The translations under genes were made by a program, and so were the position numbers. The notes beneath the pieces were generated by a model that made no database searches, was not told the origin of the DNA, and was given only the letters and a program-made list of their open reading frames with translations. Positions 16,491 to 47,744 of a stretch of 64,000 bases of DNA are shown in pieces. Source of the stretch: Brevibacterium renqingii (GTDB taxonomy: Bacteria; Actinomycetota; Actinomycetes; Actinomycetales; Brevibacteriaceae); NCBI RefSeq assembly GCF_017808105.1, contig NZ_JADBHF010000017.1, positions 1 through 64,000 of the forward strand. Reading direction: 5' to 3'. Numbering within the stretch: position 1 is the stretch's first letter; each line of letters starts with the position of its first letter.

Positions 16491-16710
16491 CACGCATCCA
16501 CTCTCTATGTTTTCCCAGCTCGGCACCAATTGCCACGCCGTATCCGCACAGAATTGCCCGTGGCTGCTCCGTCTCGTTCTAGACTTCAGCCGTCCGCGAT
16601 GACATAACGATGGGTGCGGCGACAGCTCAGAATGCACATTTGGAAGAGAGTCGGTGCGACTGGAAGCGGAGAGGGTCGGTACGACCGGACGAGGGCCGAG
16701 GCAGGAGAAG

Positions 16711-16784
16711 CGCCCCCGGCGGGGCTCGAACCCGCGACCTACCGCTTAGAAGGCGGTTGCTCTATCCGACTGAGCTACGGAGGC
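16711..16784 (-). tRNA. tRNA-Arg(TCT)
   Basis: A 74-nt cloverleaf on the minus strand. The acceptor stem is GCCTCCG/CGGGGGC, the anticodon loop CTTCTAA is closed by ACCGC/GCGGT (anticodon TCT), and the T arm has GGTTCGAGCCC. CCA is not encoded; the discriminator base is G. Confidence 0.95.
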
Positions 16785-37297: not shown

Positions 37298-38200
37298 TCA
37301 ATTTTCTCGGCGCACCCGGTATCCCCCGAGGTCAATCGAGGTTCGCCTGGCGATCACGCCGTCGGGGACCGCGCTTGCGGGAACCGAGTCTGCGAGGACG
37401 AGAACTGTCGGCCCGGCTCCGGAGACGACGGCCGGCAGCCCCTGCGCACGCAGCCCGTCGACGAGGGCCATCGACTCCGGGTAGGCGCTGCGACGGAACT
37501 CCTGATGCAGGTTGTCTCGGGTGGCTTCGAACAGCACCGCACGGTCGTTGACGAGCCCATGCACGAGCAGCCCCGAACGTGCCGAATTCTCTGCGGCCAT
37601 CGTGTGATCGACGACGGCTGGGATGAGGCCGCGAGCGACGTCGGTGTCCAGACGGACACCGGGGATCAGCACGGTGACCCCGTCGAGCGTGCGCACCGGC
37701 ACCTGCCACGTCCGAGCCGGCGCCGACAGGGAGATGGTCAGACCGCCGAAGATCGCGGGGGCAGCGTTGTCGGGATGGCCCTCGAAGTCCGTGGCGATCT
37801 CCAGCATGCGCTCCCGTCCGAGTTGCGTACCCGTCGCACAGCGTCCGAGCTCGGCGGCCAGCCCGATCCCCGCCACGACCGCCGCGGCCGAGGAGCCCAG
37901 TCCCCGGGAATGCGGGATCCTGTTGACGCAGTCGAGTTCCAGCCGCCCGAACAGGCTCTTGTCTGCAGTGGGGAATTCGGCGGCGAGCACCTCGGCGATG
38001 ACCCGCATGACCAGATGCGTGTGGTCCCGTGGCAGCGCATCAGCTCCCTCTCCCGACACCGTGACGCAGGAAGTCGTGTCGACGGGCGCGTCGTGCACCG
38101 TCAGGGTGAGCGTGTCGACGATGTCCAGGGCAAGGCCGAAGGCGTCGTATCCCGGTCCCAGATTCGCCGAGGTGGCCGGGACCTCGAGTCGCAGACGCAC
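37298..38200 (-). CDS. thrB: Homoserine kinase
   Basis: GHMP kinase of 300 aa that phosphorylates homoserine for threonine synthesis. Motif 1 is VPATSANLGPGYDAFG, the ATP-binding motif is PHSRGLGSSAAAVVAG, and motif 3 is GLPAVVSGAGPTVL. The GTG at 38200 lies 2 bp after the thrC stop, giving a hom-thrC-thrB operon. Confidence 0.96.
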   Translation of the reverse strand: MRLRLEVPATSANLGPGYDAFGLALDIVDTLTLTVHDAPVDTTSCVTVSGEGADALPRDHTHLVMRVIAEVLAAEFPTADKSLFGRLELDCVNRIPHSRGLGSSAAAVVAGIGLAAELGRCATGTQLGRERMLEIATDFEGHPDNAAPAIFGGLTISLSAPARTWQVPVRTLDGVTVLIPGVRLDTDVARGLIPAVVDHTMAAENSARSGLLVHGLVNDRAVLFEATRDNLHQEFRRSAYPESMALVDGLRAQGLPAVVSGAGPTVLVLADSVPASAVPDGVIARRTSIDLGGYRVRREN

Positions 38201-38202
38201 GC

Positions 38203-39288
38203 TCAGCTGTCCTCGAGGCCCAGGGCGCGAGCGGCGCTGACCGCGTCGACCGAGACCTGCTGGGTCTCGATCTCGGACCCGTCCTCGGTGTGCAGCGCCC
38301 AGGATGGGTCCTTGAGCCCGTGTCCCGTCACGGTCACGGCGATCGTCGCTCCGGCCGGAACCCTGCCGGCCTCGGCGGTCTTGAGCAGACCTGCCACCGA
38401 GGCGGCCGAACCCGGCTCGACGAAGATGCCCTCTTCGCGGGACAGGAACTTGTGCGCGCGAAGGATCTCATCGTCGGTGACGCAGTCGATGAGACCTCCG
38501 GAATCGTCACGGGCCGACTCCGCTCGGCTCCAGCTCGCCGGGTTGCCGATGCGGATCGCGGTCGCGATCGTGTCAGGCTCGTCGACCGGATGTCCGAGCA
38601 CCAGGGGTGCGGCACCGGCGGCCTGGAATCCCCACATCTGCGGCACCTTCTTCGCGACTCCGAAGTCCCGATACTCGTTGTAGCCCTTCCAGTAGGCCGT
38701 GATGTTGCCGGCGTTGCCGACGGGCAGGACATGGATGTCCGGGGCATCGCCGAGCACGTCGACGACCTCGAACGCTGCGGTCTTCTGTCCCTCGATGCGG
38801 TCGGGGTTGACCGAGTTGACGAGGTGGACCGGGTAGGACTCCGAGAGTTTGCGGCACAGAGTCAGGCAGTCGTCGAAGTTGCCGTCGACCTCGAGCAGAG
38901 TCGCACCATGGGCGATCGCCTGGCTCATCTTGCCCGGAGCGATCTTGCCGGCGGGCACGAGAACGGCGCAGGTCAGTCCCGCCTTCGTGGCATAGGCCGC
39001 CGCCGAGGCCGAGGTGTTGCCGGTCGATGCGCAGATGACGGCTTTGGCCCCCTGAGCCGCGGCCTTCGTGATCGCCATCGTCATCCCGCGGTCCTTGAAC
39101 GAGGCCGTCGGGTTGAGGCCTTCGTATTTCACCCACACCTGGGCGCCGGTGCGTTCGCTGAGCTTGTCCGCCTTGATCAGCGGTGTCCCGCCCTCGCCGA
39201 GTGTGACGGCCGGGGTGCTCGCGGAGATGTCGAGGAGACTCCGATACTCCTCGACGACGCCCTGCCACTGGTGTCTGGGGTAATTCAT
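38203..39288 (-). CDS. thrC: Threonine synthase
   Basis: PLP enzyme of 361 aa converting O-phosphohomoserine to threonine. The PLP lysine is in [11 protein letters not shown], the phosphate-binding loop is PVGNAGNI, and ASTGNTSAS is present. The ATG at 39288 was chosen because AAGGA lies 8 nt upstream; the GTG at 39294, which overlaps the hom stop, has the same site only 2 nt away. Confidence 0.95.
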
Positions 39289-39290
39289 TC

Positions 39291-40598
39291 TCACTGTCCT
39301 TCTACGCGGATCACGGATTTGACGGCGTGGACGACGGACAGATCGATGAGACGATCGACCGTCCTCCTCAGAGTGGAGTCGGTATTCGAATGGGTGGCCA
39401 GCACCAGCTTGGCGTGCTGGACCCCCTGCGCGTCGATGTCGCCGACCGTCTGGCGCATGAGTTCGATCGACGCGCCTTCATCGGCGAAGACCTCGGAGAC
39501 CGCTGCCAGGACACCGGGCCGGTCGACGACGTCGAGCGTGATGTGGTACCTGGTCGTGATCGAGGCGATGGGCAGGATGCGGGAGTCCTCGTGGAACGGC
39601 CGCTCGTACTGCCCACGCCCGCCGAGGACCTTGCGCCTGGCCACGGACACGATATCGCCGAGCACGGCAGAAGCAGTCGGGGCTCCCCCGGCGCCCTGCC
39701 CGTAGAACATCAGCTCTCCGGCCGCTTCGGCCTCGACGAAGACCGCGTTGAAGGCTCCTCGCACGGACGCCAGAGCATGGTTGCGGTCGAGCAGGGCGGG
39801 ATAGACCCTGGCGGAGAGCCCCGCTCCGGTCGGCGAGGAGGTCACGCGTTCGCACACGGCCAGGAGCTTGATGACGAAACCCTGATCGCGCGCGGTCTCG
39901 ACCATCTCAGCGGTGATGCCCTCGATGCCCTCGACATGGACGTCGTCGATCGACACCGGTGCGTGGAAGGCCAGGGACGAGAGTATCGCGGCTTTCGCGG
40001 CCGCATCGTGTCCGCCCACATCCGCAGTGGGATCCGCCTCTGCATAGCCGAGCTCCTGAGCCGTGGCCAGAGCACGGTCGAAGTCCCAGCCCTCGGAGTC
40101 CATCTGGTCGAGGATGTAGTTCGTGGTGCCGTTGACGATGCCGATGATGCGGTCGATCCGATCGCCGGCCAGCGAGTCACCGACGGGGCGGATGATCGGG
40201 ATGGCACCGGCCACTGCCGCTTCGTGCTCGAGCCGGACTCCGGCGACGTCGGCGACGGACATGAGCTCGCCGTAGCTCGCGGCCAGCAGGACCTTGTTCG
40301 CCGTGACCACGGAGGATCCCTGCCGCAGCGCCGCGGTGATGAGCGATCTGGCGGGTTCGATCCCGCCCATGAGCTCGACGACGATATCGGTGCCGGAGAT
40401 GGCCGCCTCGGCATCGGTCGTGAGCAGCTTCGGGTCGATTCCCGGGCGGGCCTTCGAGGCATCCCGCACGACGATTGCGCTGAGCTCCAGTGGCGCGCCG
40501 ATGCGTTCGGCCAGGCCGTCGGCACGGTTCTGAATGCGTGCGGCGACCTCCGTGCCGACGACACCGCATCCGAGCATGGCAACCTTCAGTGCCTGCAT
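39291..40598 (-). CDS. hom: Homoserine dehydrogenase
   Basis: NAD(P)-dependent enzyme of 435 aa reducing aspartate semialdehyde to homoserine. The Rossmann motif is [14 protein letters not shown] and the [19 protein letters not shown] catalytic block (with its Lys) are clear. The C-terminal ACT domain (about 350-435, [15 protein letters not shown]) points to feedback control, usually by threonine. The ATG at 40598 is preceded by AAAAGGTGAGGA; an ATG 13 codons earlier lacks this. Confidence 0.96.
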
Positions 40599-40630
40599 AT
40601 CCTCACCTTTTCCGCTGTTGTCGTTGACGT

Positions 40631-42073
40631 TCATCTGCCGCCCGGCTCTCCACCGGCCATCCCCGGATCGGTGGCGAACATCTGCGAGTGGTCCTCGGGC
40701 AGAACGATCCACTCAACTCTATCGGCATCGACCGCGAGCACTCCCGGTCGGGGCAGGTGGTTGTAGTTGCTGGCCAGGGGTCGGCAGTAGGCACCGGTGG
40801 AGGGGACGGCGACGAGGTCGCCGGCGGTGACATCGGCACCCAGGTACTCGTCCCGGACGATGATGTCCCCGGATTCGCAGTGCTTGCCCACGACCCGCAC
40901 GATCGCCGGTTCGGCATTCGAGGCTCGATTGGCCAGCGTGCAGGAATAGTCCGCGTCGTAGAGCGCCGTGCGGATGTTGTCACTCATACCGCCGTCGACG
41001 GCGACATAGGTGCGGGTTCCGCTGTCGGTGCTCACCTGCTTGACGGTTCCGACCTCGTAGAGGGTGAACACGGACGGGGAGACGACGGCTCGTCCGGGTT
41101 CGATCGAGATCCGCGGCACGTTCGTCCCGAGACCTCGGCATTCCTTGGCCACCGCCGCGGCCAGCTCCTCCGCCATCTCCGCAACCGGGATCGGTGTGTC
41201 CTGCGTGGTGTAGCGGATGCCGAAGCCGCCGCCGAGGTCGACGTCGGGCAGATCCACACCGTGTTCGGCCATGATCTCCGCGCGGAAGGCCAGCACACGG
41301 GCTGCGGCGACCTGGAAGCCGGAGATGTCGAAGATCTGCGAGCCGATGTGCGAATGGAGCCCGTCGAGACGCAGATGAGCGGAGTCCGCGACCATCTCCG
41401 CGGCCCGGGCTGCGGTCCCGTCCGCCAGCGACAGCCCGAACTTCTGATCCTCGTGGGCAGTGGCGATGAAGTCGTGGGTGTGGGCTTCGACGCCCACGGT
41501 CACACGCAGCATGACCGGGGCGAGGACGCCCTTCGCCGCGGCGATCGCCTCGAGCCGCTCGACCTCGTCGAGGCTGTCGACGAAGATCCGCCCGACCCCG
41601 TAGTCGAGGGCGTATTCGAGTTCGGCGACGGACTTGTTGTTTCCGTGCAGCCCCACGCGTTCGCCGGGGACTCCGGCGGCCCGCGCCACCATCATCTCCC
41701 CCAGCGAACAGGTGTCGAGGCCGAGTCCTGCTTCGTGGACCCAACGGGCCACAGCCGTGCACAGGAAGGCCTTGCCCGCGTAGTAGACATCGGCGCCGGC
41801 CAGTCCCTTCTCCGTCGAGAAGGCATTCGCGAACGTCGAGGCATAGGCCTGAGCACGGGATCTGAAGTCGGCCACGTCCATGACGAGGGTGGGCGTGCCG
41901 TAGTCGGCGGCCAGATCGGTCACGGAGTGTCCGGCGATGGTGAGCACCCCTTCGTCGGTCTTCGCGACGTTGTCCGACCACAGGCTCGGCAGCAGCGCGT
42001 TGACGTCATCAGGGTAGGGCAGCCACACCGGGGCCGGCGTCGCATGCAGCGTCCCTGCGATATGTGCGGGCAT
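40631..42073 (-). CDS. lysA: Diaminopimelate decarboxylase
   Basis: PLP enzyme (fold III) of 480 aa for the last step of lysine synthesis. The PLP lysine is in YYAGKAFL. HSHIGSQIF, the glycine loop DLGGGFGI, SIEPGRA and the TGAYC cysteine are all present. An N-terminal extension of about 45 residues before the barrel is common in actinobacteria. The ATG shares one base with the stop of the upstream nrtL-like gene. Confidence 0.96.
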   Translation of the reverse strand: MPAHIAGTLHATPAPVWLPYPDDVNALLPSLWSDNVAKTDEGVLTIAGHSVTDLAADYGTPTLVMDVADFRSRAQAYASTFANAFSTEKGLAGADVYYAGKAFLCTAVARWVHEAGLGLDTCSLGEMMVARAAGVPGERVGLHGNNKSVAELEYALDYGVGRIFVDSLDEVERLEAIAAAKGVLAPVMLRVTVGVEAHTHDFIATAHEDQKFGLSLADGTAARAAEMVADSAHLRLDGLHSHIGSQIFDISGFQVAAARVLAFRAEIMAEHGVDLPDVDLGGGFGIRYTTQDTPIPVAEMAEELAAAVAKECRGLGTNVPRISIEPGRAVVSPSVFTLYEVGTVKQVSTDSGTRTYVAVDGGMSDNIRTALYDADYSCTLANRASNAEPAIVRVVGKHCESGDIIVRDEYLGADVTAGDLVAVPSTGAYCRPLASNYNHLPRPGVLAVDADRVEWIVLPEDHSQMFATDPGMAGGEPGGR

Positions 42074-42903
42074 CAGATCCTCTCCGGCGCCGCAGCGCCC
42101 AGTTGTCGAAGTCCTGCGGCGAGGACGATGATGGCGGCTCGGACGAGGACGAGCCGGGCTGAATGTCTCGCAGTGATGTCCTCATCGATCGTCGGTGTCA
42201 CCGCACAGCGGCTCAGCCACTCCTCGACCGCGTCGGCCACATCGCTCAGCCCTGTGACCAGCGGTGCGGCGCGCCGGAGGCGTCGCGAACGGTCGACGGC
42301 TCCCGGAAGCGCCGCCAGCGCATTGAGCAATCGAGCCTCACTGGGGTGGTCGAGCGTCGAGGAGTCGGCCTCGTCGGTCGTGATTCCGGCGGCCCGCGCG
42401 CGCCGCCGTTCTCTGCAGGCAGCAGCATGGCGAAGTTGGAGAGCGCCGATCACATTCGGATCGACGGCAGCGTCCGACCATGGACCCGAGCCGGCGTTCG
42501 ACCAGGGGCCGCGGGGTGGCTGCAGAGCGCAGGCGGCGTCGATGGCCGCCCGGGCACGAGCGGTCGGCGTGAGGCTGATGTTGACGAAGCCGGGGTCGGC
42601 GGTGTCGGCGGCAGCGACCTCGGGAAGAGTCAGCAGGTGGTCGCAGATGTGTTCGGCGAGCGCCTTTCGCCCGGACGGGTGAGCGGCGGCTCGCAGCGCC
42701 GCAGTCGTCGACCAGTCCCCGTTCTCCGGGCGACGAGGCGCGACGACGTCGATCGGCCCATCGGCGGCTCCCGGTGCCACGAGACCGGATTCGGCCAGCG
42801 TCAATGCGCGCGCGAGTGCGGTCTGCAGATCTTCCGGGGTCACCCGAACAGAGTACTCGGAGGCCCCGTGCGAGGACGAATCTGTCGTCATCTTCGCTCT
42901 CAT
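42073..42903 (-). CDS. nrtL: ArgRS-related protein lacking catalytic domain (NrtL-like)
   Basis: Protein of 276 aa. Residues about 15-105 resemble the Add-1 N-domain of arginyl-tRNA synthetase (DVVAPRRPENGDWSTTAALR, then ADPGFVNISL). Residues about 140-276 resemble the DALR anticodon-binding domain (GALQLRHAAACRE, ending VLAAGLRQLGAAAPERI). The Rossmann core with HIGH and KMSKS is absent, so it cannot charge tRNA. It occupies the usual argS place before lysA. The function is unknown; tRNA binding is inferred. The start may instead be the ATG at 42891. Confidence 0.78.
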   Translation of the reverse strand: MRAKMTTDSSSHGASEYSVRVTPEDLQTALARALTLAESGLVAPGAADGPIDVVAPRRPENGDWSTTAALRAAAHPSGRKALAEHICDHLLTLPEVAAADTADPGFVNISLTPTARARAAIDAACALQPPRGPWSNAGSGPWSDAAVDPNVIGALQLRHAAACRERRRARAAGITTDEADSSTLDHPSEARLLNALAALPGAVDRSRRLRRAAPLVTGLSDVADAVEEWLSRCAVTPTIDEDITARHSARLVLVRAAIIVLAAGLRQLGAAAPERI

Positions 42904-42935: not shown

Positions 42936-44111
42936 TCAGATCGCGCCGGGGCGGCAGGCGGCATGGCTGACGAGGAATTTGACCGCCACCGAAGCGAGCA
43001 CCACCGCGAAAGCCGGCCACATGCTCTCGAAGCTCTGGATGAGGAATGCGAAGACCAGCGGGCCCGTCGCTGCGAGAAGATAGCCTCCGCCTTGGACGAA
43101 CCCCGACAGCGCCGCCGCCGAGTCCGCGTCCCGGGCGCGCAGGGTGATGAGGGTGAGCGCCAGCGGGAAGGTCGAGATCCCGACGCCCAGCAGAACGGTC
43201 CACAGCACCGGAGCCGCGGTCGGCAGCAGCCAGAGCCCGATGTAGCCCACGGCCAGGCTGAGGCAGAATCCGACGACGATGAGGTAGGCCGAGGTCAGCT
43301 TCTGCGCCAGGGCCGGGAGGACGAAGCCGAGGACGAGGGGTATCGCGGTGACCAGTGCGAGCATGGCACCGGCGAAGGCCGCGTCGAATCCGGATCGTGT
43401 CAGCAGCGTCGGCAGCCAGGTGAAGAGGATGAAGTTGTTGAACGAGGTCAGTCCCGTCATCGTCATCAGCGCCCAGGCGCGTCGGCTGCGCATCAGTCTC
43501 GCCAGTTCGCTGCCTCCGACGACCGCGGCGGCCACCTCGGCGGAGGGCGCGGGCCGCAGCAGCCGGATGACGATCCACACGCAGACCCCGCAGGCGGCGA
43601 ACCCTGCCCACACGAGCAGGGAGCCGCGCCAGCCGAACCCTGTGGCCAGGGGTACCGCCACGAGAGGCGGAATGAAGGTCCCGAATTGGAGCAGACCGAC
43701 GTGGACGGTCGACATCAGTGCTACCCGGTCGGGGAAATACGACTTCACCAATGGCGGAAGGACGACGTTGCCGATACCCATCCCCAGCAGCGCGAGCACG
43801 CTGAGGGCGAGGAACACCGGTGGGGAGTCTATGACGGCCCGGGCCCCGAGTCCGATGGTGACCATCGCCATCGCCGCCAGAGCGAGACCCAGATCAGTGA
43901 AGCGCGAGTAGAGCCGTGGGGTGAGAAAGCCGCTGAGGCCGTAGAGCAGCGGAGGGAGCATGCCGATGATGGCCAGGAACGCCGCACTCAGATGGATCTC
44001 CTCGCCCATGACGTCGAGCAGCGGCGAGAGACCGGTGACCCCCGGGCGCAGATTGAATGCGGCGACGACGATCCCGACGACGATCAGAATGCGTGTCCGC
44101 GCAGAGTTCAT
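42936..44111 (-). CDS. MFS transporter, CynX/NimT type
   Basis: Membrane carrier of 391 aa with about twelve helices. FNLRPGVTGLSPLL in helix 1 and GNVVLPPLVKSYFP in the central loop are typical of the CynX/NimT (cyanate or nitroimidazole) subfamily. The substrate is not predictable. ATG start with AGAGGGC upstream. It has its own promoter region downstream of the ABC genes and runs towards nrtL with a 32-bp gap. Confidence 0.88.
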   Translation of the reverse strand: MNSARTRILIVVGIVVAAFNLRPGVTGLSPLLDVMGEEIHLSAAFLAIIGMLPPLLYGLSGFLTPRLYSRFTDLGLALAAMAMVTIGLGARAVIDSPPVFLALSVLALLGMGIGNVVLPPLVKSYFPDRVALMSTVHVGLLQFGTFIPPLVAVPLATGFGWRGSLLVWAGFAACGVCVWIVIRLLRPAPSAEVAAAVVGGSELARLMRSRRAWALMTMTGLTSFNNFILFTWLPTLLTRSGFDAAFAGAMLALVTAIPLVLGFVLPALAQKLTSAYLIVVGFCLSLAVGYIGLWLLPTAAPVLWTVLLGVGISTFPLALTLITLRARDADSAAALSGFVQGGGYLLAATGPLVFAFLIQSFESMWPAFAVVLASVAVKFLVSHAACRPGAI

Positions 44112-44192: not shown

Positions 44193-46742
44193 TCAATAGT
44201 CGAGTTTGAGCCCCTCCACGGGCGAGAGTCGCGCGGCCCGACGGGCCGGGGCCAGTGCCGAGAGGATGCCGGCGAGGATCGCGACGGCGAGGATGCCGAG
44301 GAAGGAAGGCACTGAGAAGTCGACGATGAGATCGGTGGAGTACTCATAGGTGAGCAGCCGCGTGCCGACGATGCCCAGAGCGCTGCCCAGGACGATGCCC
44401 AGGAGTGCGGCCACCGAGGAGATGAGCACTGCTTCCAGGGCCAGCAGGGCGCGCAGCTGCGCGATGCTCAGGCCCAGTGCACGCATGAGTGCGTTCTCCC
44501 GCCTGCGTTCGATGACCGAGAGGCTCACAGTGTTCGAGACGCCGATGAGCGCAATGAGGACGGAGACGAGGAGCAGCGCCACAGCTCCGGCGAGCATGAC
44601 GTCGATGAAATCGGAATAGGCGCCGCGGGCGACGGCGGAACCGCCGACCTCGCCGCTGGGCACGTCGAGAGCCTCGGCGACGGACTGCTGGATCCGGCTG
44701 ATCTCATCGACATCGACGTCCTCGTCGAGGCGCACGAGCACCGCGGTCGACGTCGCCGACACCCCGATGCTGTTGCCCACCTCGGGAGTGGTGAAGAACG
44801 CCAGACTGGACAGGCCTTCCTTGTGCACGGGAACGTTCATCTCGTTGAGCCCTCTGATCCGCACCGTCGAGTCGGGGTAGTCCTCGGGCACCACCACCCG
44901 GCCGGTCACCAGATCTGCGGCAGAGTCACCGAGGACCGTCGAAGCGGTTTCGGGATCGATGACATAGATCTCCGGGCGGGAGTCTTTGTAGTCCTCGACC
45001 GCCTCGGCGCGGTGAGCGGAGATCGCGTGGGCGACTCCGGGGATCTCGCGCACCTCCTCGAGCGAATCATCGGCGACGAGGCCGGACAGCGGCACTGAGA
45101 TATCGACCGGATAGCGCTGGTCGAGGCCGTGGCCCAGCGTCGCCTTCGTCGACATCCCGCCGACGAGGATGGTCGCGACGAGCGTGACGCCGATGACCAG
45201 GGCCGTCGCGGTGGTCGCCGTGCGCCGCGGATTGCGCAGGGTGTTCAGGGTGGCCAGCTGACCCGGCATCCCCCAGGGGCTGATCAGCACTTCGCCGATC
45301 CACCCGACGAGCGGCGGGATGATCCGCACAGAGCTGATGACGAGTCCGGTGACGATGAGTCCCCCGCCGAGGGCACCGCCGATGATCCACGCCTGTGCCG
45401 CCGACACCGCGTAGAGGGAGACGATGACGAGCACGGCGCCGACGACGAGGCAGCCGATGCCGATGAGCTGACGGGGACGGTTCCGCGTGGACGGAGCGAA
45501 GGAGACGTCGAAGGGCTGGAGTGCTTCGAGAGGTGTCACGGCGATGGCGCTGCGGGCGGGGCGGATCGTGGCCAGAATCGTCAGCAGTGCTCCGACGGCG
45601 ATACCGGTGATCAGAGCCGAGACGGGAACGGTGAGGGTGTCGTAGGGAAATTCCTCGGGCCAGTAGCGCACGGCCGCCAGCATCAGCGCGTGGCTGACGC
45701 CGACGCCGGCGAGGACGCCGAGGATCGATCCGAGCAGACCGACGACGAGGCCTTCGGCGACGACGGAGCCGTACATCTGCCCGCGGGACGCGCCGAGGCA
45801 GCGCAGCAGGGCGAGTTCACGACGGCGCCCGGCCACGATGACCGAGAAGGTGTTGGAGACGACCAGGATCGCCACGACGACCGAGATGCCGGCGAAGACG
45901 AGCAGCAGCGCGGTGATCACGGCATTGCCTCCGGACAGGCGATCGGTCTTCACCTCGACGGCATCGCCGACGGTGAGCGCCTCGAGGCTGCCGTCCAGCT
46001 GAGAGGATCCGATGACCGACTGCAGCTTCGACCGCACCCTTTCGGCGTCGGCACCCTCGTCGAGTGCGATCTGGATCGCGATGACGTCGCCCTGCTGCGC
46101 GAAGTAATCCTGGTAGCCGGAGGCGGTCGTCAGGGCGCGATTGGCTCCGGGCAGGGCCGGGTCCTCCCCCATCTGTGCGAGACCGACGACTGTGAAGGTG
46201 ACGCTGTTGTGACTCGGTCCGCGGTAGACGGGCATATCCTCCTCACCGGTCTCCACGGGGACGGAATCGACGGTGAAGCGGATCTCGTCGCCGATCCCGA
46301 CGCCGAGGCTCTTCGCCGTGCGCGTGTCGAGCACGAGGTCGGTGGTCGATTGCGGGCGTTCGCCTGAAACGATGTCGAAGGCGTCCAGCCCTGCATCAGC
46401 CGGGACCGGGGACAGGGCGAACGAGCTCTCGGAGAAGGCGGAACCCCGCCCGGCGGTCAGCGTCCGTGCCGACAGCGAGGCGGAACGGACTCCCTCGGTC
46501 TCGGCCAGGGGGCCGAGCAGCGGCGCGACCTCGTCTCCGCCGACGAACACGTCCTTGTCGGGGATGACCGTGAGGTCGGCCTGCGAGAACGAACGACCGA
46601 CGGCGTCCTCGAGGCTGTTCTGCAGGGAGGAGTTGATGATGAGGGTCGTCGCCACGAAGCCCGCCGCCAGAGCGATTCCGAGACCGATCGCGAGGAAGCG
46701 GGCCCAGTGGATCCGGATCTGCGCCAGAGCGACAGCGATCAC
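44193..46742 (-). CDS. ABC transporter permease, FtsX/MacB type, two-repeat
   Basis: Permease of 849 aa with two FtsX-like modules. An N-terminal helix (about 13-33) and a large extracytoplasmic domain (35-255) are followed by three helices (about 265-395). A second extracytoplasmic domain and three C-terminal helices end in SPVEGLKLDY, mirroring VTPLEALQPFD after the first module. Such exporters move lipids, peptides or antibiotics, or signal, rather than import. The GTG start overlaps the ATPase stop (GTGA). Confidence 0.9.
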   Translation of the reverse strand: MIAVALAQIRIHWARFLAIGLGIALAAGFVATTLIINSSLQNSLEDAVGRSFSQADLTVIPDKDVFVGGDEVAPLLGPLAETEGVRSASLSARTLTAGRGSAFSESSFALSPVPADAGLDAFDIVSGERPQSTTDLVLDTRTAKSLGVGIGDEIRFTVDSVPVETGEEDMPVYRGPSHNSVTFTVVGLAQMGEDPALPGANRALTTASGYQDYFAQQGDVIAIQIALDEGADAERVRSKLQSVIGSSQLDGSLEALTVGDAVEVKTDRLSGGNAVITALLLVFAGISVVVAILVVSNTFSVIVAGRRRELALLRCLGASRGQMYGSVVAEGLVVGLLGSILGVLAGVGVSHALMLAAVRYWPEEFPYDTLTVPVSALITGIAVGALLTILATIRPARSAIAVTPLEALQPFDVSFAPSTRNRPRQLIGIGCLVVGAVLVIVSLYAVSAAQAWIIGGALGGGLIVTGLVISSVRIIPPLVGWIGEVLISPWGMPGQLATLNTLRNPRRTATTATALVIGVTLVATILVGGMSTKATLGHGLDQRYPVDISVPLSGLVADDSLEEVREIPGVAHAISAHRAEAVEDYKDSRPEIYVIDPETASTVLGDSAADLVTGRVVVPEDYPDSTVRIRGLNEMNVPVHKEGLSSLAFFTTPEVGNSIGVSATSTAVLVRLDEDVDVDEISRIQQSVAEALDVPSGEVGGSAVARGAYSDFIDVMLAGAVALLLVSVLIALIGVSNTVSLSVIERRRENALMRALGLSIAQLRALLALEAVLISSVAALLGIVLGSALGIVGTRLLTYEYSTDLIVDFSVPSFLGILAVAILAGILSALAPARRAARLSPVEGLKLDY

Positions 46743-47545: not shown

Positions 47546-47671
47546 CAAAGGGCCTCATATCGCAGTTCGGGATTCCTCTCCGACTACCTTAGATGCTGCC
47601 CGAGCCGTCGACCACTCGGAACGGAAATGCAGAACCGCCCACCTCAGCTGGTGAGATGGACGGTGCCATGG

Positions 47672-47744
47672 TGCCCGCGACAGGATTCGAACCTACGACC
47701 TTCTGCTCCGGAGGCAGACGCTCTATCCACTGAGCTACGCGGGC
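47672..47744 (-). tRNA. tRNA-Arg(CCG)
   Basis: A 73-nt cloverleaf on the minus strand. The acceptor stem is GCCCGCG/CGCGGGC, the anticodon loop CTCCGGA is closed by TCTGC/GCAGA (anticodon CCG), and the T loop is TTCGAAT. CCA is not encoded; the discriminator base is A. Confidence 0.95.

Follow-up and report, generated by a model that had tools for sequence, protein, structure and literature searches.

The window analysed here, a stretch of 64,000 nucleotides from Brevibacterium renqingii, carries directly before lysA a gene that encodes the two ends of an arginyl-tRNA synthetase (ArgRS) and nothing of the catalytic part between them. It raises the question of how such a gene came to stand at this place and what, if anything, its product does. 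To our knowledge, the fate of the old gene after the replacement of an essential synthetase is seldom seen.

A coreless ArgRS gene before lysA

The gene is located at 42073..42843 on the (-) strand and encodes a protein of 256 aa from a GTG start codon, which is homologous to the start of the native ArgRS (V/M-TPE). Its N-terminal end is matched by the Pfam model PF03485 (Arg_tRNA_synt_N) with 31.3 bits against a cut-off of 21.5 and its C-terminal end by PF05746 (DALR_1) with 45.8 bits against 22.3, and none of the ArgRS core models in Pfam, including PF00750 for the class I catalytic core, matches the protein. The N domain (Arg_tRNA_synt_N or Add-1) covers residues 1-108 (42520..42843, (-)), the linker replacing the catalytic core covers residues 109-127 (42463..42519, (-)), both with boundaries set by us, and the DALR domain covers residues 128-256 (42076..42462, (-)) and ends in APERI. 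The stop codon and the lysA start share one base (TGATG). An earlier note on this DNA had described an N domain and a DALR domain without the catalytic core, encoded at the argS position before lysA and overlapping it, and these results bear the description out. The note also proposed to look for a true argS elsewhere, and it is found at a separate locus (G000:C11), a 582-codon frame with the sole PF00750 match in the whole genome. It encodes a complete ArgRS of 579 aa with N domain, core and DALR domain, of another type than the native one.

The earlier note let the gene extend over 42073-42903, which has to be corrected, as translation probably begins 60 bases further in, from the GTG at 42843. 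The ATG at 42903 (276 aa) is disfavoured because of a promoter-like stretch and an in-frame stop at most 24 bases upstream of the GTG in 18 of the 38 coreless relatives; the remaining 20 have no such stop to argue against a start further upstream. The in-frame stops inside some matches of the genus search are, as far as compared, these same stops upstream of the GTG. A 512-aa open reading frame in the same frame was rejected, as it extends across the adjoining transporter gene. The promoter-like stretch consists of a conserved GATTCG (42877..42882, (-)) and, 21 bases downstream of it, a -10-like hexamer TACTCT (42850..42855, (-)) that lies six bases before the GTG and suggests a leaderless start. 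All 38 coreless loci have the same arrangement of GATTCG, a constant spacing of 21 bases, TANNNT at -12..-7, six bases and GTG. The native ArgRS of the genus begins at the equivalent GTG, and TANNNT precedes it by 5-7 bases in 16 of the 17 native loci tested (two of the 19 were left out as another start had been picked for them). We infer from these patterns that the stretch acts as a leaderless promoter. At the other end of the gene, a one-base overlap between its stop codon and the lysA start is seen in 34 of the 38 loci, and in the remaining four the two codons abut.

Downstream of the coreless gene and on the same strand follow lysA for diaminopimelate decarboxylase (40631..42073, (-); TIGR01048, 422.6 bits), hom for homoserine dehydrogenase (39291..40712, (-); NF004976, 502.5 bits), whose listed start overlaps lysA so that the true one may be further in, thrC for threonine synthase (38203..39294, (-); TIGR00260, 312.5 bits), thrB for homoserine kinase (37298..38200, (-); TIGR00191, 177.7 bits, cut-off 168.25) and then rho. 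Strand and spacing suggest that the five genes from the coreless gene to thrB form one operon. The title of Oguiza 1993 reportedly refers to arginine regulation of argS-lysA, the gene pair that we regard as ancestral. According to the passages of PMC7923171 used here, arginine induces and lysine represses the argS of corynebacteria, which makes an operon-linked role plausible and no more than that.

A tRNA-Arg(CCG) gene, found by ARAGORN, lies about 4.8 kb upstream of the coreless gene on the same strand (47669..47744, (-)) and has A20 in its D-loop by our reading. A second one, tRNA-Arg(UCU), is at 16710-16784 (-), so that the window contains two of the four genes for tRNA-Arg that were found. 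Between tRNA-Arg(CCG) and the coreless gene are genes for a CynX/NimT-like transporter (42936-44111, (-)) and a LolC/E- or FtsX-like ABC permease (44193-46742, (-)), both assigned below the NCBIfam cut-off.

Displacement of the native ArgRS within the genus

Among 57 Brevibacterium genomes, 19 encode a full native ArgRS before lysA (545-548 aa, with starts as picked by our script) and 38 have the coreless gene there (245-396 aa), with lysA directly downstream in all 57. The coreless frame is open in every one of the 38. A search with the organism's own ArgRS found the second type of ArgRS at 79-100% identity in 38 of the 57 genomes, exactly those with the coreless gene; in the other 19 the search did not find it, giving only matches of 24-38% at the native gene. 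Since the second ArgRS and the coreless gene occur in the same 38 genomes and the other 19 have a full native ArgRS at this place, we conclude that the coreless gene is the native argS, which was displaced and has lost its core. The identity to the lysA of the window is 81-100% in the 38 coreless genomes and 63-69% in the 19 native ones, so that the split between native and coreless genes runs along species lines. In families f6 and f8, four genomes combine a full native ArgRS encoded before lysA with an ArgRS of the second type elsewhere (in the three f6 genomes, frame length and end matches were the only basis for assigning the second type), and they are the intermediate that a displacement would be expected to pass through.

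We are thus highly confident that the native argS was displaced by an ArgRS of another type, cut in frame to its N and DALR domains, and kept before lysA as an open frame under moderate purifying selection on both domains. The origin, by displacement and loss of the core, is ordinary. The outcome is unusual, in that each of the 38 clade members sampled retains the gene product as a folded and selected protein. The states before (19 species) and after (38 species) the event are found at the same place within one genus, which amounts to a natural experiment, and the role of a synthetase freed from tRNA charging becomes directly testable.

Several loci have peculiarities of their own. At L139 (G283:C1:3682000-3693000), lysA is flanked on the same strand by the complete native argS before it and a complete argS of the second type after it, in a genome with a further second-type match elsewhere. 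The longest and most diverged coreless proteins of the genus, L090 and L091 (G314 and G319; 377 and 396 aa), carry a repetitive insertion within their DALR domains, and the N of the pocket discussed below is replaced by R. Apparent frameshifts, possibly assembly errors, break the lysA match of G323 (L077) into two pieces and the second-type ArgRS match of G265 (L138) into several. By our reading of the alignment, the relatives contain apparent remnants of the end of the core, which vary in length.

Selection and predicted fold

We estimated omega with codon models on a fixed lysA tree for two groups of 18 (group A) and 12 of the 38 coreless genes, leaving out eight that are too divergent (L042, L053, L055, L062, L086 and L089-L091) and using the lysA of L077, which is cut by the frameshift, in part. 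In group A omega is 0.30 for the N domain, 0.62 for the linker, 0.20 for the DALR body and 0.16 for the DALR end, and the corresponding values in the group of 12 are 0.39, 0.36, 0.27 and 0.33. For lysA the two groups give 0.043 and 0.039, and the native ArgRS, based on 10 of the 19 native genes, has 0.078 in the N domain and 0.036 over the whole gene. An omega of 1 (best of five kappa values) is rejected for every part, with 2dlnL of 16-261 for the N domain, DALR body and DALR end, the weakest rejection being that for the group A linker (11.8). The coreless protein is relaxed yet selected.

The AlphaFold model, built from 57 rows, has a pLDDT of 92.5 and a pTM of 0.88, with pLDDT below 50 at residues 113-118 of the linker. 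The earlier note had looked to structure prediction for the two ArgRS domains, and both were recovered by the prediction and the structure searches. In VIA-align, 230 of the 256 residues match the ArgRS of T. thermophilus at 3.5 A (Z 22.8), and for the yeast enzyme of the tRNA-bound structure 1f7u the figures are 231 residues, 3.0 A and Z 18.2; the top 16 rows are all ArgRS, most of which span both domains at 3.0-4.5 A. Foldseek ranked ArgRS first too. Its best rows cover about 127 columns with one domain each, and in the rows over 216-273 columns the rmsd is 18-25 A, so that both domains were never superposed together. The predicted joint placement of the N and DALR domains is therefore less sure than the two folds themselves, and it may reflect what AlphaFold knows of ArgRS.

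Which recognition surface is kept

Bacterial ArgRS recognises the D-loop nucleotide A20 of its tRNA, and according to the sections of PMC8975779 we draw on, F36, Q40, A78 and N84 of the E. coli enzyme bind A20 while F82 stacks on it; contacts to A20 are also treated in parts of PMC9976931. By motif spacing, E. coli F82, N84 and A78 correspond to F86, N88 and A82 of the window protein. Among the 38 coreless genes F86 is found in all, N88 in 33 (five being without it) and A82 in 29. Already the native genes of the genus have residues other than F and Q at the positions equivalent to F36 and Q40, and among the coreless genes these positions vary. By our reading of the sequences, A20 is present in all four tRNA-Arg genes found and absent from four control tRNAs, 37 of the 46 tRNA hits having been typed.

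In the DALR domain, the native-conserved residues Y210, K208 and H193 are kept in none of the 38 coreless genes, R214, Y134, Y137 and Y198 in one each, R141 in two and R197 in four. R147, H227, R230, E254 and R255 are present in all 38, and D43 of the N domain in 34. Counting the native-conserved columns in which at least 80% of the coreless rows keep the native residue, we obtained 15 of 46 for the N domain, 0 of 12 for the linker, 12 of 51 for the DALR body and 13 of 19 for the DALR end. Within the DALR body the R/K/H/Y/F/W columns fare worst, as at least half of the rows retain the native residue in only 3 of 17 of them, versus 15 of 24 small or hydrophobic ones. Some of the DALR residues now lost may have had no other role than to face the core. 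The coreless and native proteins have median net charges of -4 and -4 in the N domain and, over the last 126 residues, of -2 and -3; the charge is thus native-like, which indicates that no basic surface has been gained. We take one of the anticodon-contact residues of the yeast enzyme to be a Tyr near the position of Y210.

The loss of so many native-conserved DALR residues makes it unlikely that the coreless protein still has an intact anticodon recognition, while docking to the D-loop of tRNA-Arg at A20 is possible as judged from the residues kept. The earlier note conjectured that the protein recognises tRNA-Arg and could act in the regulation, degradation or sequestering of tRNA. The recognition finds only partial support: the three D-loop pocket residues are mostly kept, and many of the native-conserved charged and aromatic residues of the DALR domain are gone.

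Coreless genes in other lineages

Outside the genus, coreless genes stand directly before lysA at three f21 loci, ten f13 loci and one f17 locus (L126), 14 of 14 in this set. The f21 genomes, which we presume to be Streptomyces, include the 11 of g95 that head the list of our phylum-wide search, and 9 of the 396 genomes searched score above the cut-off of NF045898, the NCBI model for the "ArgS-related anticodon-binding protein NrtL". At another f17 locus (L127; G034:C1:971000-977500) the reading frame directly before lysA ends in GLPPSERF and has no Pfam match. It may be a further decayed remnant, too diverged to count as a coreless gene, and was left out of the tree and the AU tests.

Loss of the displaced gene is an alternative outcome. 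We screened about 1.5 kb upstream of lysA in 15 further genomes, picked for a single, weakly scoring ArgRS of the second type in our searches, and detected no remnant in 13 of them, a screen that very diverged remnants could escape. The other two, both f17, have a DALR remnant ending just before lysA, L189 (G050) with an E-value of 2.8e-5 and L188 (G136) with an E-value of 0.009 and a recognisable end. In four of the seven f13 genomes screened, another gene clearly stands before lysA by our reading. Hence lysA in these genomes does not generally depend on such a remnant.

A quick tree of 77 of 78 rows, including 16 of the 38 coreless and 10 of the 19 native proteins of the genus as well as native rows from other loci (37 of 52 gave a usable frame), groups the Brevibacterium rows together (98, starred). 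The AU test with coreless proteins constrained to a single clade gives p-values of 0.083 for f1, f21 and f13, 0.080 for f1 and f21, and 0.456 for f1 and f13. The free tree places the coreless proteins of the genus and of f21 apart, though the AU tests reject none of these single clades. The case for an independent origin rests mainly on the 19 species with a full ArgRS in the same genus and on the lysA identities that follow the split, and the Brevibacterium lineage has probably arisen separately from NrtL. L126 has a very long branch that falls among the coreless rows of the genus with an unsure placement, and was left out of the AU tests.

The lineages keep different residues, as a comparison with Brevibacterium represented by 16 of its 38 coreless genes indicates. 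The F and N of the pocket are each kept in none of the ten f13 genes, where R430 and R503 (native numbering) are present in all ten and Y499 in four. In f21 the F, the N and R430 are kept in all three genes, and Y499 and R503 are not. We speculate that displaced ArgRSs may have been converted several times independently into tRNA-Arg sensors adjoining lysA, each lineage keeping a different surface (here the D-loop pocket, in f13 more of the DALR residues), an idea to which we give little credence. If true, such a sensor would respond to whether tRNA-Arg is free or charged and tune the synthesis of lysine and threonine.

Possible functions of the coreless protein

Our tentative suggestion, which we hold somewhat short of even confidence, is that the coreless protein could be a non-enzymatic regulator or adaptor that binds RNA, namely the elbow of tRNA-Arg, and is tied to lysA-hom-thrC-thrB. 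Its N domain would still dock on the tRNA-Arg elbow (D-loop, A20) or on an RNA resembling it, the DALR domain would serve as a structural or partner-binding arm, and the protein would act as a regulator or adaptor linked to the lysine and threonine cluster. In its favour we count the selection on both domains, the predicted fold, the retained pocket residues F86, N88 and A82 together with A20 in the tRNA-Arg genes, and the DALR residues present in all 38. We count against this suggestion the small share of native-conserved columns that are kept, the variable equivalents of F36 and Q40, the unchanged net charge and the less sure joint placement of the domains, and also that the protein evolves much faster than lysA (omega ~0.04) and the native N domain (0.078). 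The same fast evolution fits the main rival, a structurally maintained translated leader without a ligand. On that reading nothing would count but the leaderless start, the open frame and the close coupling to lysA, and the protein would stay folded just to avoid misfolding or harm from an obligatory first cistron. A leader would also explain the promoter-like stretch in 38 of 38 loci, the overlapping (34) or abutting (4) junction with lysA, and the retention of small and hydrophobic residues where many charged and aromatic ones are lost. It is rather unlikely in our judgement, as omega is far below 1 across both domain bodies and not just at the ends, polar residues such as D43 (34 of 38), R147, H227 and R230 (38 of 38) are conserved, and a much shorter leader would suffice, 13 of the 15 other genomes having no detected remnant at all.

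The protein might instead present tRNA-Arg to a modification or processing enzyme, by analogy with human DALRD3, which according to the portions of PMC7237682 cited here contains a DALR domain, lacks any recognisable catalytic motif of a synthetase and recruits METTL2 to particular tRNA-Arg species. This would be improbable, because the DALR domain is the more eroded one in our case, and because the N-terminus of DALRD3 is described there as having no recognisable domain whereas the window protein has the ArgRS N domain. Slightly less probable again is a role in trans as a helper or competitor of the second ArgRS, i.e. a chaperone or sink of tRNA-Arg. The perfect co-occurrence with that enzyme (38 of 38) would agree with it, but displacement alone explains the co-occurrence, and the second ArgRS, with its three domains complete, would seem to require no help. 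The loss of the core, the fast evolution and the apparent core-end remnants of varying length in relatives could even suggest a decaying pseudogene or an assembly artefact, which we regard as very improbable given the frame open in all 38 genomes and the rejection of omega = 1.

Comparison with known systems

Proteins of this kind have already been named NrtL by NCBI, and the Brevibacterium lineage is far below the cut-off of that model. The window protein scores 81.1 bits against NF045898, or 85.1 bits from the GTG start, with a cut-off of 340; among the f21 proteins L143 is above the cut-off and L145, with 200 bits, is below it. Like the window protein, L143 and L145 have the N and DALR domains without a core match in Pfam, and the three f21 loci are also directly before lysA. 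Unlike NrtL, whose model has 327 positions, the window protein has 256 aa, and in the free tree it nests with the native ArgRS of its own genus, away from the f21 proteins, although the AU test does not reject a single clade with them (p 0.080). Our searches of the open literature (NrtL, argS paralogs, argS-lysA) found no functional paper on an NrtL-type protein.

Human DALRD3 resembles the window protein in having a DALR domain without a synthetase catalytic motif; it differs in its N-terminus, in which the window protein still has the ArgRS N domain, and is reported from vertebrates. Likewise derived from a synthetase and non-charging is the SerRS-like protein SLIMP, which according to the extracts of PMC9437257 we rely on binds tRNA-Ser but does not aminoacylate it. 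It comes from another synthetase, possibly by duplication, whereas the window gene is the displaced original. A further comparison is with the native actinobacterial ArgRS encoded by argS before lysA: the coreless protein shares its position, its equivalent start and its N and DALR domains, and differs from it by lacking the whole catalytic core and having lost many DALR residues.
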